Source of the DNA: Chitinophaga pinensis
Lineage (GTDB): Bacteria > Bacteroidota > Bacteroidia > Chitinophagales > UBA10324
Direction of reading: 5' to 3'
Assembly: GCA_945903305.1 (NCBI GenBank)
Contig: CAMDOA010000003.1
Coordinates: forward strand, 66,325-116,186
DNA: 49,862 nt
A program made the position numbers and the translations under genes. This document shows positions 1-15,189 of the stretch, in pieces; the stretch's first letter is position 1, and each line of letters opens with the position of its first letter. The notes under the pieces were generated by a model that did no database searches, was not told where the DNA came from, and was given only the letters and a program-made list of their open reading frames with translations.

Positions 1-2253
1 TGCAACCAACTGATCAAAATCATCGCAACCAATTTCGATGTTGATGGGCTTGCCAACCGGCGGGCCGTTTGCTTCTTTGTCAACTGTTATTTGTACACCG
101 GGAATTCCTTTTACAACTGCTCGAATGTTATCTAACACTTCACCGGTTGAGGCGCCATCGCGTTTTGAAATTTCAACAAACGCTACTGTTACTTTTCCTT
201 TATTGGATGCCACACTTTTATCGCCGCTACTTGGGTCAGTAGCGCCAACAGCCACATTTGATATAACCGATTCAACTATCGGGTTGTGTTCGCCAATGAC
301 TGAGTACACTTTTTTCTCTACGATTCTTGTAATGGAATCTGTTACTGCCTGATGTGTACCAACGGGCATGTTTATATACACATAAGCAAAGTGTGGTTCT
401 CCTGCCGGGAAAGTTTCGACCGGTACATTGCGAAGTATCAAAGCATAGACTGATATGAATAATAAAATAACTGTGCCCACTAAAAGCAAAGCTGGTCGTA
501 TTCCAATTAAGCACCATGTAATTACCCGCTTATAAAAATCCTGAACACGCGGCCATGTTTTGCCCATGAAATTTCCGGTTACTTTATGCAGCACGAAACG
601 ATTGAGTAAAACCAATAACCATAAAAACACTCCGAAATTTCCGACACCAATATTTCCGCTTACATAAAACAACAGGGAAAATGAGAGAAGAATTATGGTT
701 GTTAAACGAAGTCCTTTATTTTTTTTCCGTTTTACTTCGGGGTCATTTTCATCTTCATGCGGCTTCATAAAATCAACTGCAAAAACAGGGTTGATGATGT
801 AGGCAATAACTAACGATGCCAGCAATGTTATAATGAGTGTGATTGGCAAGAAGAACATGAATTTACCAATGATGCCGGGCCAGAATGCTAGTGGTAAAAA
901 AGGTGAAAGCGTGGTTAGTGTTCCGGTGAGTACGGGAACAAATACTTCGCCAGTTGCAATTTTTGCCGCTTGCTTGATGGGCACTTTTCCATTGGCGAAA
1001 ATGCGGTGTGTGTTTTCAATAACTACAATGGCATCATCCACAACTATTCCAAGTGCAAGCAGGAAACTGAATAGCACAATCATGTTTAAGGAGAAACCTA
1101 TTCCGGGTAAAATCAAAAACGCGAGGAATACAGAGAGCGGAACAGAGAGTGCCACGAAAAATGCATTGGTTACTCCCATGAAAAACATGAGCACAATTAA
1201 CACCAGTAGAAATCCGATGATGATAGTATTGATTAAATCGTGCAGTGTTGTACGGGTGGCCTCACTTTGATCGCCGGTGATGGTGATTTTTAATCCAGAT
1301 GGAAAGGAGCTTTTTTGCAGTTCATCAACTATCACGCGCACTTTATCGGATGCATCAATCAGGTTTTCGCCGCTTCGTTTTATTACATTGAGTGTGATTA
1401 CATTTTTGTGTTCCAATCGCGCGTAACTTTCTTTTTCAGCAAAAGCATCTTTTACTTCAGCAATGTCTTTCAAATACAAAGTGGCGCCCGACATGCTTCG
1501 CAAAACAATGTTTTGAATCTGATTCACATTTTTGAATTCGCCCGATACACTGAGTGAGCGCTTCATTCCATCCATTGAAATATTTCCGCCGGAGATGGTC
1601 ATGTTTTCAAATGCAATGGCGCGGTCAATATCGTCGAGAGTTAAATCGGCGGCCTGCATTTTAAACATATCTACATTCACCTGTATTTCACGATTCAATG
1701 CGCCAACAATATCAACCCGTGTTATTTCTTTCATGCCTTCCACACGATCTTTTATTTCATCGGCATATTTTTTTAATTTATTCAAATCATAATTGCCTGA
1801 AATATTCAAATACATAATTGGCATTTCAGAAAAATCGACTTCCTGAACAGTAGGTGCATTTTTTAAATCGGATGGTAAATCAGATTTAGATTTGTCCACT
1901 TCATCTTTTACTTTTTGCTTGGCAACCGCTACATCTACATTGGTATTAAATTCAATAACGATGTTGCTGAAATCCTGAATGGAATTGCTGGTCATTTTTT
2001 TTACACCACTGATGCTCTTGATGCGCTTCTCCATTTGCTTGGTAACCAGATTTTCCATGTCTGCTGGTGATGCTCCCGGGTAAATAGTACTTACATAAAT
2101 AGTAGGTATAACAATATCCGGAAATTGTTCCTTCGGAATATTAATGTATGAAAATATTCCGGCGAGCGTAATGATAATGGTGAGCACATAAATACTTGTG
2201 CGGTTATCAATGGCCCATGAACTGGCGAAAAATTCTTTGTTCGTGTCTTTCAT
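1..2253 (-). CDS. RND efflux transporter permease subunit (C-terminus beyond the window)
   Basis: The inner-membrane pump of a tripartite efflux system, using the proton gradient to export drugs or other small molecules. The reading frame is open from an ATG at 2253 to the window edge: 751 codons of a family usually near 1000-1050 residues, so the C-terminal part is missing. Seen: an N-terminal transmembrane helix (about 19-37), a porter-like periplasmic region (about 40-335), a block of membrane helices from about 340, and the paired aspartates D406/D407 in LGIVVDDAIVVIEN, which match the proton-relay pair of AcrB. A second periplasmic region begins near 640. It is last in the tetR-tolC-adaptor-RND operon, 94 bases after the adaptor gene. 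HAE-1/AcrB type is more likely than the metal (CzcA) type, but substrate cannot be read from sequence. Confidence 0.93.
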   Translation of the reverse strand, partial: MKDTNKEFFASSWAIDNRTSIYVLTIIITLAGIFSYINIPKEQFPDIVIPTIYVSTIYPGASPADMENLVTKQMEKRIKSISGVKKMTSNSIQDFSNIVIEFNTNVDVAVAKQKVKDEVDKSKSDLPSDLKNAPTVQEVDFSEMPIMYLNISGNYDLNKLKKYADEIKDRVEGMKEITRVDIVGALNREIQVNVDMFKMQAADLTLDDIDRAIAFENMTISGGNISMDGMKRSLSVSGEFKNVNQIQNIVLRSMSGATLYLKDIAEVKDAFAEKESYARLEHKNVITLNVIKRSGENLIDASDKVRVIVDELQKSSFPSGLKITITGDQSEATRTTLHDLINTIIIGFLLVLIVLMFFMGVTNAFFVALSVPLSVFLAFLILPGIGFSLNMIVLFSFLLALGIVVDDAIVVIENTHRIFANGKVPIKQAAKIATGEVFVPVLTGTLTTLSPFLPLAFWPGIIGKFMFFLPITLIITLLASLVIAYIINPVFAVDFMKPHEDENDPEVKRKKNKGLRLTTIILLSFSLLFYVSGNIGVGNFGVFLWLLVLLNRFVLHKVTGNFMGKTWPRVQDFYKRVITWCLIGIRPALLLVGTVILLFISVYALILRNVPVETFPAGEPHFAYVYINMPVGTHQAVTDSITRIVEKKVYSVIGEHNPIVESVISNVAVGATDPSSGDKSVASNKGKVTVAFVEISKRDGASTGEVLDNIRAVVKGIPGVQITVDKEANGPPVGKPINIEIGCDDFDQLVA

Positions 2254-2260
2254 ATTTATA

Positions 2261-2298
2261 GCTTTTAGCTTTTAGCGATTAGCTTTTAGCGGTTAGCG
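2261..2298. repeat. Degenerate heptamer tandem array, unit GCTTTTA
   Basis: Five consecutive 7-nt units start at 2261, 2268, 2275, 2282 and 2289, followed by GCG. Three are exactly GCTTTTA and two vary at the middle positions (GCGATTA, GCGGTTA). The array fills the gap between the adaptor gene and the RND gene, starting 7 bases before the RND start codon in transcription terms. It is one of several 7-nt-period arrays at gene boundaries in this window. Confidence 0.8.
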
Positions 2299-2347
2299 TG
2301 TTTTGTTTTATAATTTATTTCTGAAATTTTTAAACTTAGTAACCTTC

Positions 2348-10221: not shown

Positions 10222-10920
10222 TTAAAATTTTATTACCGAAGCAATACTAAAAGCTGCAGCTGCTGCTATTGCCCCAATAAGTGTAGTGCGCAAAGCTCCG
10301 GCAATTGGAGATTGCCCTGTTGCTTTGCTTTTAAAATATCCGAAAATAAATAGGGCAATGATTGTTATGATGGAGGAATAAATTAATCCCTCGTAAGGGT
10401 GGTTAGTAAAAAAATAAGCAGTAAGCGGAATGAATCCACCGACAATGTAGGAAATAGAAATATTTGCAGCACTCTTTCTGGCCCGCTTATCATCTGGTTC
10501 ATCTAAGCCCAATTCATACTTCATCATAAAGTCAACCCACTTGTCTTTATCCAATGCTAATTCATCTGCCACTTTTGTTCGGGTAGCTTCACTGATTCCG
10601 TAAGCAGCGAGCACTTCATGAATTTCTTCTTTCTCTTTGTGTGGTACTCTTTCCACCTCTGAATATTCGCGCTTCAATTCCGATTTATAATGGTCCTTTT
10701 CCGTTTTCGCTGAAAGGTAACCGCCCAATCCCATGGCAATGCTTCCGGCAACAATTTCAGCAACTCCTGCTGTAATAATTATTGAATTATTATCAACCAC
10801 TCCGCTCAATCCTGCTGCCAGTGCGAATGGAACAGTTAATCCATCAGCCATGCCAATAACAATATCGCGCACCATTGCCGGACTCTTAAAATGTTCTTCG
10901 TTGTGTGGATGATCGTGCAT
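10222..10920 (-). CDS. VIT1/CCC1 family iron/manganese transporter
   Basis: A 232-residue membrane protein of the vacuolar-iron-transporter family, which moves Fe2+ or Mn2+ out of the cytosol. Seen: a histidine-rich N-terminus (MHDHPHNEEH), the family opening RDIVIGMADGLTVPFALAAGLSG, the GSIAMGLGGYLSAKTE segment ending helix 2, and a charged cytosolic metal-binding region (about 70-135) rich in Glu/Asp. Three C-terminal helices follow. Length is normal. Its ATG is only three bases from the terminal repeat of the adjacent four-helix-bundle element, so its translation-initiation region is repeat-derived. It may be read from the accC operon. Confidence 0.92.
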   Translation of the reverse strand: MHDHPHNEEHFKSPAMVRDIVIGMADGLTVPFALAAGLSGVVDNNSIIITAGVAEIVAGSIAMGLGGYLSAKTEKDHYKSELKREYSEVERVPHKEKEEIHEVLAAYGISEATRTKVADELALDKDKWVDFMMKYELGLDEPDDKRARKSAANISISYIVGGFIPLTAYFFTNHPYEGLIYSSIITIIALFIFGYFKSKATGQSPIAGALRTTLIGAIAAAAAFSIASVIKF

Positions 10921-10923
10921 TAG

Positions 10924-10969
10924 TCAGTATGCAGTTTAAAGTAGGCAGTATGCAGTTTGTAATTCGCAG
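10924..10969. repeat. Left inverted terminal array of the four-helix-bundle element (unit CAGTAGG/CAGTATG)
   Basis: Units with 7-nt period start at 10925, 10932, 10939, 10946, 10953 and 10960, mostly CAGTnnn. Bases 10924-10954 match the reverse complement of 11440-11470 at 29 of 31 positions. The array starts three bases from the VIT1 start codon. Confidence 0.85.
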
Positions 10970-10984
10970 AATTTTCTTTCATAA

Positions 10985-11380
10985 TTATTTTTTCTTCTGA
11001 TAATTTTTTTGAAATGAGTTTTGAAATTTAGCAGAATTATTCATCATGTATCCAATTAGTTTTCCAACTTCTTCCGACTTTTTTATTAATTCGTTATAAG
11101 TAATTTTAGAAATGTATTTGCACGCCATAGAAAAATCTAACCAGACTTGTGTTTCAGTATGTTCCATGTCAGCATCTGATAATTTGCTGATGAAATGTGC
11201 TTCGAATAATCTTTTTCTGTAAGCTTCAGCTATACAAGCGCATGTTGAACGGGAAGACATTCGCACTTGGTCTATCAAAGAATATTTTTCTTCTGATGGA
11301 AACCCTTTTGAGAGATTGAATATTTCCATCGAAAGGAGAAACCCTTTTTGATAAGCAATCAAATCACGAAAAGTATTCAT
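10985..11380 (-). CDS. Four-helix-bundle protein, 23S rRNA-intervening-sequence (S23/IVP) family
   Basis: 131 residues, matching the small four-helix-bundle family first found inside 23S rRNA intervening sequences and related in fold to the Avd accessory proteins of diversity-generating retroelements. Family hallmarks: FRDLIAYQKGF at the start, FPSEEKYSLIDQVRMSSRS, the IAEAYRKR segment, FISKLSDADMEHTETQVWLD and the C-terminal helix EEVGKLIGYM, then a lysine-rich tail. The biochemical role is unknown; basic helices suggest nucleic-acid binding. It sits between inverted heptamer arrays and apart from any rRNA gene or reverse transcriptase. It has the same orientation as accC upstream and VIT1 downstream. 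Confidence 0.9.
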   Translation of the reverse strand: MNTFRDLIAYQKGFLLSMEIFNLSKGFPSEEKYSLIDQVRMSSRSTCACIAEAYRKRLFEAHFISKLSDADMEHTETQVWLDFSMACKYISKITYNELIKKSEEVGKLIGYMMNNSAKFQNSFQKNYQKKK

Positions 11381-11439
11381 TAAGAAAAATAAAAAATTTG
11401 AATGAAAAAAACTGCTGACGGAATTAAATGCTGCAAAAA

Positions 11440-11470
11440 TGCATACTGCCTACTGTAAACTGCCTACTGA
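11440..11470. repeat. Right inverted terminal array of the four-helix-bundle element (unit TGCCTAC)
   Basis: Heptamer units start at 11440, 11447, 11454 and 11461; TGCCTAC occurs twice, with variants TGCATAC and TGTAAAC. It is the reverse complement of the left array with two mismatches in 31, and ends one base from the accC stop codon. The same unit recurs at 14169-14203. Confidence 0.85.
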
Positions 11471-11471
11471 T

Positions 11472-12809
11472 TTATTTCAATTGAAAAGTATTCATAAAGG
11501 CAGTAGTAAAATTCCCTTCGCGGAAATCTTTGTTCTTCATCAATTGCTGATGAAAAGGGATGGTGGTTTTTATTCCTTCAATTACATATTCGCTTAATGC
11601 GCGCTCCATAGTTTCAATGGCCTCTAATCGGGTTTGAGCTACCGTAATAATTTTTGAAATCATAGAATCATAATAAGGTGGAATAGTATATCCCGCATAA
11701 ATGTGTGAATCGATACGGACGCCATGACCTCCGGGAGTATTCAGGTTAGTGATTCTTCCGGGACATGGACGAAAATCATTGTAAGGGTCTTCGGCATTTA
11801 TGCGGCACTCGAGCGCGTGCATTGCAGGATAATAATTTTTACCGGAAATAGGTTCGCCGTTCGCAATTTTGATTTGCTCCTTTATTAAATCGTAGTTGAT
11901 TACTTCTTCGGTAACCGTATGTTCCACCTGAATTCGAGTATTCATTTCCATGAAATAAAAATTCCGGTACTTGTCAACCAAAAATTCAATAGTACCTACA
12001 CCTTCGTAACTGATTGCATTGCAAGCTTTGATTGCTGCATCACCCATTTTTGTTCGCAATTCCTCAGTCATGAATGGTGATGGAGATTCTTCAAATAATT
12101 TTTGATGCCTGCGTTGAATGGAACAATCGCGCTCTGATAAGTGACAGGCTTTTCCATATTGGTCACCTGCAACTTGTATTTCAATGTGCCGTGGTTCTTC
12201 AATATATTTTTCCATGTACACACCATCGTTGCCGAATGAAGCACGGGCTTCAGTTCTTGCTTGCTCCCAACCAATTTCCAAATCTTCCTCCTTCCACACC
12301 AAACGCATTCCTTTTCCACCTCCACCTGCAGTTGCTTTCAATATAACAGGATAACCAATTTTCTTCGCAATTTTTTTTGCCTCTTTTAAATCTGTCAATA
12401 AACCATCGCTGCCCGGAATAACGGGTACTCCTGCTTTTTTCATGGTATCCTTTGCGCTGATTTTATCGCCCATTCGGGCAATCATACTTGCAGTAGGGCC
12501 AATAAATTTCACTCCGTATTCATTACATATTTCTGCGAACTTTTCATTCTCAGCTAAAAATCCATAACCCGGATGAATAGCATCTGCACCTGTAATTTCA
12601 ACGGCACTCATGATGCGCGCCATGTTCAAATAACTTTCAGAACTTTTTGGCGGACCAATGCAAACAGCTTCATCCGCAAATTTTACATGCAGACTTTCGC
12701 GATCAGCAGTGGAGTATAAAGCAACCGTGCGAATGTTCATCTCCTTGCAGGTGCGGATTATGCGCAATGCAATTTCTCCACGATTCGCTATAAGAATTTT
12801 CTTAAACAT
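11472..12809 (-). CDS. accC: Acetyl-CoA carboxylase, biotin carboxylase subunit
   Basis: Carboxylates the biotin on AccB using ATP and bicarbonate, the first half-reaction of malonyl-CoA synthesis. Its 445 residues have normal length and order: N-terminal domain ([16 protein letters not shown], 4-19), then ATP-grasp with the glycine-rich lid [15 protein letters not shown] (156-170). [15 protein letters not shown] (about 287-301) carries the metal-binding Glu/Asn and catalytic Arg region, and the C-terminal domain follows. It comes directly after accB in the same orientation, separated by a hairpin-forming array. The stop codon is immediately next to the four-helix element. Confidence 0.97.
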
Positions 12810-12840
12810 GAATTTCTGATTTGATGATTGAAGAGAAATT

Positions 12841-12910
12841 ATAAATGATAAAGTATAAATCAGTCACAAAAAAATTTATGCTTTATCATTTATGCTTTAA
12901 ACTTTACATT
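12841..12910. repeat. Heptamer arrays forming a 20-bp inverted repeat between accB and accC
   Basis: 12841-12860 (unit ATAAATG/ATAAAGT, 7-nt period) and 12874-12893 (units TTATGCT/TTATCAT) are reverse complements at 19 of 20 positions, with a 13-nt loop. The heptamer period continues through 12910 and covers the accB stop codon at 12904-12906. In the transcript it would be a long AU hairpin between accB and accC. The AAATGAT-type unit also occurs at 31776-31810. Confidence 0.8.
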
Positions 12911-14098: not shown

Positions 14099-14203
14099 TG
14101 ATTTCAGATTTATGATTTCAGATTAATTGTTCATTGGTGTATTGGTTCATTAGTATTCATAGTAGCAAACTGCCTACTGAATACTGCCTACTGCTTACTG
14201 TCA
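14099..14203. repeat. Composite tandem array between fabH and efp with three different unit families
   Basis: Three blocks follow each other. 14099-14126 is two copies of a 14-mer, TGATTTCAGATTTA, with one mismatch. 14129-14160 is four octamers of the GTTCATTG/GTTCATTA type, the reverse complement of the TAATGAAC unit at 6654-6685. 14169-14203 is five heptamers ACTGnnn (ACTGCCT twice), the same family as the four-helix element ends. The last block covers the fabH stop codon (14188-14190) and its final codons. Confidence 0.8.
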
Positions 14204-15189
14204 TAAGCCCACTTCATATAAACTGCTCCCCATGTAAATCCGCCGCCGAAAGCAGCGAGTACAATGTTATCGCCTTTGTGCATTTTCTTTTCCCACTCCC
14301 ACATGCAAAGTGGAATAGTTCCGTTGGTGGTGTTTCCATAACGGTCAATGTTTATCATCACTTTCGCATCATCCAATCCCATTCTTTTTGCAGTGGCATC
14401 AATAATTCTTTTATTCGCCTGATGCGGAATAAGCCATGCAACATCATCGCTGTGTAAGTTGTTGCGCTTCATTATTTCTTCAGCAGCATCAGCCATTTTA
14501 GTTACTGCGAATTTGAAAACCGCCTGACCTTCCTGATACACATAATGTAGTTTCTTCTCAACTGTTTCAGCACTCGCAGGCATTGCACTTCCTCCGGCCT
14601 TCTGATGTAAGTGAACACGACCAGCTCCGTCAGATCCAAGCACTGCATCTATTATTCCTAGTCCATCATTGTTTTTTTCCAATAAAACTGCTCCTGCGCC
14701 ATCACCAAAAATCACACAAGTTTGTCGATCGCTGTAATCAATTATGGAAGACATTTTATCGCCACCAACTACTATTACTTTTTTTGCAGAGCCAGCCTCA
14801 ATAAACTGGGAAGCTGTTCTCAAAGCATAAATAAATCCGGAACATGCTGCATTTATATCGAAGCCAAATGAGTTTTTCAGTCCGCATTTATCAGCGATAA
14901 TATTAGCTGTTGCAGGAAACTGCATATCAGGTGTGGTGGTTGCACAAATTATTAAATCAATTTCAAGCGGATTGGTATTTGTTTTTTTTAATAATCCAAG
15001 TACCGCTTCTTTTCCCATATCAGAAGTGCCAAGTCCGATTCCTTTTAATATTCTTCTTTCCTTAACACCTGTGCGAGAGGTAATCCACTCATCAGTGGTG
15101 TCAACCATTTTTTCCAGTTCAGCATTTGTTAATACATATTCGGGAACATATCCGTGAATTCCTGTAATGGCTGCTCTGGTTTTTTGCAT
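14188..15189 (-). CDS. fabH: 3-oxoacyl-[ACP] synthase III (KAS III)
   Basis: Condenses acetyl-CoA (or a branched starter) with malonyl-ACP to begin fatty-acid synthesis. Its 333 residues have normal length. The catalytic triad is visible: C116 in [10 protein letters not shown]256 in LIPHQANKR and N286 in [17 protein letters not shown] is the thiolase-fold glycine motif. The last four residues (DSKQ) and the stop codon come from the adjoining tandem array, whereas the family usually ends at about MKWAY; this suggests the array replaced the original terminus. It sits 15 bases downstream of plsX. Confidence 0.96.

Follow-up and report, generated by a model that had tools for sequence, protein, structure and literature searches.

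Introduction

What is a gene of the 23S rRNA intervening-sequence protein family doing between two protein-coding genes, closed in by a pair of inverted repeats? The question is raised by a 547-bp unit that fills the gap between accC and a VIT1-family gene of Chitinophaga pinensis. The unit belongs to a 49,862-nucleotide stretch of DNA (contig CAMDOA010000003.1 of assembly GCA_945903305.1, positions 66,325 to 116,186), here called the window. PF05635, the family of the encoded protein, is large and of unknown function, and takes its name from copies within 23S rRNA genes.

PF05635 proteins have already been described in rRNA insertions, including those of the 16S and 23S rRNA of CPR bacteria, and their resemblance to Avd is likewise in the literature. 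In Coxiella, the intervening sequence (IVS) at helix 45 of the 23S rRNA has a 28-bp terminal stem that is cut by RNase III and an open reading frame in its loop. Tandem GACAGAT heptamers adjoin the start of its S23p gene, and their number varies between strains. We describe the anatomy of the window unit, its relatives within and beyond the phylum, and the readings that may account for it.

Anatomy of the Window Element

The unit consists of two inverted arms around one PF05635 gene, all on the minus strand. Read in the direction of transcription, accC (11472..12809; an open reading frame with orthologues in 12 of 16 genomes of the family) is followed by the 5′ arm (11440..11470), the PF05635 gene (10985..11380, 131 aa), the 3′ arm (10924..10954), and the VIT1-family gene (10222..10920; PF01988, 246.8 bits). 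The 5′ arm is an array of heptamers of the type NNCAGTN, with the units TCAGTAG, GCAGTTT, ACAGTAG, and GCAGTAT followed by GCA, and the 3′ arm is the inverted array. The arms are 31 nt long with two mismatches, as the preliminary description had it, and they lengthen to 40 nt with five mismatches (88%) at 10919–10958 and 11436–11475. Its account of the tight fit is likewise confirmed: a single base (11471) lies between the accC stop codon (11472–11474) and the 5′ arm, and three bases (10921–10923) separate the 3′ arm from the VIT1 start codon (10918–10920).

The predicted fold of the element is a stem closed by the arms (z = −4.84). An Rfam scan of the window returned two tRNAs only and no RNA family for the hairpin. 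A chance inverted repeat was rejected, as the arms are the sole inverted 31-mer pair with at most two mismatches within 1.3 kb when the whole window is scanned, and control flanks, given below, rarely match.

The PF05635 protein is the only one that the element encodes. With hmmscan it scores 92.2 bits against PF05635 (23S_rRNA_IVP; cut-off 33.8) and 77.7 bits against TIGR02436, “four helix bundle protein” (cut-off 24). Foldseek matches its AlphaFold model (pLDDT 93.5) to 2RLD and 2GSC, both of the S23/IVP family, with a weaker match to the Avd structure 4DWL. The window protein thus shares the pentamer-forming four-helix-bundle fold of Avd from the diversity-generating retroelement of Bordetella phage, while it falls below the cut-off of the Avd equivalog NF033474 (26.8 bits, cut-off 80) and just below that of bAvd, PF22296 (39.9 bits, cut-off 40). 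Diversity-generating retroelements have a reverse transcriptase, whereas the genus of the window element (genomes G000, which holds the window, to G005) has no match to RVT_1 (PF00078). A reverse-transcriptase partner was rejected on this ground, and such an enzyme is not the obvious engine of spread.

Inverted Heptamer Arms Among Relatives

The window genome contains three PF05635 genes, each within inverted period-7 arrays, and the three elements use three different words: NNCAGTN, TTCAAAG, and AAAATCT/AAAATGA. The idea that the 31-nt terminus could serve as a fixed signature for searching genomes therefore fails, because the heptamer word is specific to each element. What recurs is the architecture.

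To score it, the best inverted match between the 180-nt flanks upstream and downstream of a gene was taken, and a score of at least 16 was counted. Among 105 PF05635 genes of the order, 57% reach this score, compared with 9% for the same flanks in direct orientation, 1% for flanks paired across loci, and 3% for the flanks of other genes. Identity between the flanks of these 105 genes peaks at lags of 7, 14, and 21. Within the arms, whose median length is 31 nt, a period of 7 fits best in 50 of the 69 elements and one of 8 in another 13. An independent hold-out of 31 loci (30 phylum-wide draws and locus L138) gave 42% for PF05635 loci and 4% for other genes.

The expectation that PF05635 genes of the clade would be flanked by inverted arrays thus holds for most of them, and about a third of those in the order set have no arms detectable by the flank test; these genes may have lost their arms, may have gapped ones, or may never have been armed. 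One candidate explanation, that genes with weak or absent arms are rRNA copies, was rejected: Rfam detects rRNA at the Azospirillum locus L325 only and at none of 17 Bacteroidota loci.

Most plasmid-borne relatives tested show a similar architecture. Across 17 cyanobacterial loci and L325, the inverted flank score is at least 14 in 14 of the 18. These arrays are mostly G-rich, with unit lengths of 7–9, and a PF05635 copy of Gemmatirosa is similar to them. On four of the cyanobacterial plasmids (L313, L314, L315, and L319), a tyrosine-type recombinase gene follows the PF05635 gene within approximately 50–75 nt, in the same direction.

A Relative Within 23S rRNA

The copy on plasmid AZO_p2 of Azospirillum lipoferum 4B (L325) lies in rRNA sense within a 23S rRNA gene (Rfam RF02541). 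Its arms, TCAGAGGACGGATGACAGAGGACGGAGGACAGA, are built of the heptamers GACAGAG/GACGGAT, and its predicted fold has a closed stem (z = −9.4). In a comparison with a second Azospirillum, the element stands in place of a helix tip of the 23S rRNA, a helix that we take to be helix 45. The inverted heptamer-array rule is common to most relatives tested, in several phyla, and includes the rRNA copy.

The window unit and the 23S IVS with an S23p/PF05635 open reading frame (Coxiella, Leptospira, and Azospirillum) are alike in several respects. In each, a protein of this family is placed in the loop of a stem formed by complementary termini. The window unit, at 547 bp, is similar in size to the 428–444 nt of the Coxiella IVS, and it shares its sense orientation with the Azospirillum copy. 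Heptamer arms are common to the window unit and to two 23S-resident copies, one analyzed here (L325) and one from the literature (Coxiella), though the window word differs from GACAGAT and from GACAGAG/GACGGAT. The 23S IVS sits in rRNA and is processed by RNase III with no ligation, whereas the window unit, known here from its sequence, sits between accC and VIT1; it is accordingly a variant of the IVS-type element and not a strict member. The proposal that the unit is an intergenic relative of 23S intervening sequences is borne out by these two 23S copies, and the most fitting reading of the unit is an IVS-type element carried in the message of an operon.

Orientation, Polarity, and Protein Lineage

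Where armed elements lie between co-directional neighbors, the PF05635 gene is sense to the operon in 60 of 61 cases (p = 5e-17), and the hold-out set agrees in all 12 of its armed tandem cases. The outer edge of the arm is a median of 4.5 nt from the neighboring open reading frame, a distance that is approximate, as the open reading frames were called mechanically. Lying in operon sense and flush with their neighbors, the elements have little room for a promoter. The arms also have a fixed polarity. Read inward, they have G in excess of C in 65 of 69 elements and in 15 of 16 of the hold-out; for 60-nt stretches upstream of other genes the figure is only 28 of 115.

Both arms of an element share its heptamer word, which varies among elements and follows the lineage of the protein at non-syntenic loci. 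For pairs of elements without common neighbors, arms are shared by 2.7% when protein identity is below 25%, by 25% at 50–60%, and by 60% at 60–75%. The element between ffh and rpsP in congener G004 encodes a protein 67–68% identical to that of the window element and has the same heptamer type, and an element at another locus of a Chitinophagales MAG combines a 63% identical protein with related units. In our best explanation, whole units are the steps by which arrays change, and the arrays and the protein diverge together.

Whether the two arms are kept alike through RNA pairing was judged from their mismatches, of which 73 are compatible with G-U pairing and 79 are A-C. This lack of asymmetry gives no sign of selection on RNA pairing, and the idea is unsupported.

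Filled, Empty, and Gene-Less Sites

The accC–VIT1 junction contains the element in G000, G002, and G005. Congeners G003 and G004 lack it there, in keeping with the suggestion that related strains might have an empty junction. The site between ffh and rpsP has no insert in G001 and G003. In G000, G002, and G005 it holds a hairpin of TTAGC-type heptamers without a gene, and in G004 a PF05635 element whose heptamer is other than the TTAGC type. The G004 copy (L047:1520-1570) has an apparent frameshift near the start of its gene with its arms intact, and is probably decaying. Another element lies exactly between a stop and a start codon, where G001 has a bare TGA-GTG junction.

The accB–accC gap has a complete PF05635 element with ATTTGATG-type arms in G002 and only remnants of ATTTGATG-type arrays in three congeners. 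In the window genome, a comparison of five congeners reveals a hairpin of another type in this gap (12840..12900), gene-less and made of ATAAAGC/ATAAATG heptamers. A further long hairpin, GGAACGCAGATT... / ...AATCTGCGTTCC, occupies the gap between acyl-CoA synthetase and 3-hydroxyacyl-CoA dehydrogenase genes in G002 (L211), at the site of the TTCAAAG-type PF05635 element of G000. In filled and empty pairs the old spacer has been replaced and not simply split, and a target duplication therefore cannot be read.

Arrays also stand alone. A solo NNCAGTN array (14163..14204) is located at the fabH stop codon with no PF05635 gene near it; it is present in G004 and G005 and not in G003. The fabH–efp gap as a whole (14103–14204) contains three adjoining period-7 arrays (NNCAGTN, AATGAAC/CAAT-type, and TGAAATC-type), all gene-less, the first of which starts inside the last codons of fabH. 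Between two efflux-type genes, a solo TTAGCNN array (2249..2306) directly abuts the start codon of a gene on the minus strand. The same word brackets a PF05635 gene between cas6 and cas4 on a Pseudanabaena plasmid (L328).

Period-7 arrays were counted with one fixed detector across sampled genomes. There are 19 in 449 kb of G000, including the window element and the accB–accC hairpin, 16 in 200 kb of G060 (14 PF05635 genes), and none in 200 kb of G011 (7 PF05635 genes). None is found in approximately 940 kb from six genomes without a PF05635 match, and counts at other periods are near background. Within the sampled genomes, gene-less arrays and hairpins thus occur only where PF05635 genes exist. 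The preliminary description would have been refuted by genes of the clade without such ends and by arrays unrelated to the presence of the gene; this check turns out mostly in its favor, although arrays and hairpins exist without the gene as well.

Counts of the NNCAGTN pattern are 19, 48, 23, and 43 for the four congeners that have the cognate protein, and the two that lack it have no match, a result that counts as one evolutionary contrast and not six because both cognate-less congeners are on one side of a tree split of 97%. A second heptamer type, AAAGTTN, has only 15 matches in seven genomes, too few to serve as a replicate of the link between arrays and cognate protein. The distant genome G025 has 18 NNCAGTN matches, and at C498:1142-1235 it carries a long perfect array of alternating AGGCAGT/AAGCAGT units.

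Proposed Mechanism and Alternatives

The window unit is probably an IVS-type element placed between protein genes of an operon, co-transcribed with them, folded into a stem, and excised by RNase III, with co-transcription, stem formation, and excision being the steps we infer. With little room for its own promoter, the element would be transcribed within the accC–VIT1 message. The arms would then fold back into a stem of 31–40 bp with the gene in its loop. RNase III may cut this stem and so part the accC RNA from the VIT1 RNA. The flanking messages would be left whole, and the insertion could be tolerated. The protein, presumably pentameric like Avd, may bind the RNA of the element or the repeat arms and aid persistence or spread; a role in RNA binding is suggested by its Avd-like pentameric relatives. 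That the element is processed out of the accC transcript at the RNA level, as proposed at the outset, is plausible given the sense orientation, the stem-closing fold, and the RNase III precedent. On this reading, the hairpins and arrays that lack a gene would be products of decay or non-autonomous versions of the element, although they could also be acceptor sites.

A mobile element that acts at the DNA level, of the MITE or REP kind, is the strongest competitor, if an unlikely one. The arms would be DNA hairpins or terminal inverted repeats that either the PF05635 protein or an enzyme acting in trans recognizes, with the gene-less hairpins as non-autonomous copies. REP and MITE elements are likewise small hairpins between genes, some with a gene and some without. 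Solo arrays and hairpins that lack the gene but use the same heptamer types fit this account, as do the restriction of window-type arrays to congeners with the cognate protein and the absence of an RNA-wobble asymmetry in the arms. However, unless it relied on host transcription, a DNA transposon would not be expected to show such a near-uniform sense orientation. The window element also differs in having no transposase and in iterated termini that vary from element to element, and with the old spacer replaced a target duplication cannot be read.

A much less probable account is that the arms are ordinary operon hairpins that stabilize transcripts or resemble terminators, with PF05635 a host gene that came to lie there by chance. 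Arms that are flush between genes and form hairpins would suit such a role, as would the gene-less hairpins at similar sites. This account is at odds with arm types that track protein lineage across unrelated loci, with flanks of other genes that lack inverted matches, with junctions filled or empty between close species, with the same anatomy inside a 23S rRNA gene, and with the lack of arrays in the sampled genomes that have no PF05635 gene. That chance or simple polymerase slippage made the arrays is hardly credible, for although several bacteria have an excess of heptameric repeats, with slippage put forward as the cause (PMC4692102), inverted pairing is specific to PF05635 genes, the polarity is fixed, and the arms match the protein lineage.

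Heptamer Repeats in Other Phyla

The IVS-type reading bears on repeats that have been described separately. Two papers report intergenic heptamer repeats of TAACTGA in Beggiatoaceae, Cyanobacteria, and Bacteroidetes (PMC4679880), and of GGGAATC and GGGGA(C/T)T in Xanthomonas and Nostoc (PMC4692102). In Xanthomonas they often form inverted pairs, at 70–75 per genome (PMC4692102). As described there, these are 7-nt tandem units beside genes, like the window arrays; in contrast to those repeats, each Bacteroidota element analyzed here has its own word. A link to PF05635 does not appear in the passages of PMC4679880 and PMC4692102 that were consulted. Our literature search, which lay mostly outside subscription journals, found no paper that joins PF05635, rRNA insertions, the likeness to Avd, and heptamer repeats.

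Most PF05635 copies examined lie between operon genes, within a repeat architecture that is also present in the rRNA copy. This may connect three loose ends, namely the PF05635 family, the stems that close rRNA intervening sequences, and the orphan heptameric repeats of several phyla. We tentatively put forward a wider possibility, which the odds do not favor: that PF05635 elements are a widespread, RNA-embedded selfish class for which the rRNA IVS is one niche, and that each protein, specific for its own heptamer, drives the formation or spread of arrays in trans. The family might then be the source of unexplained intergenic heptamers in Bacteroidota and perhaps in Cyanobacteria, Xanthomonas, and Beggiatoaceae.
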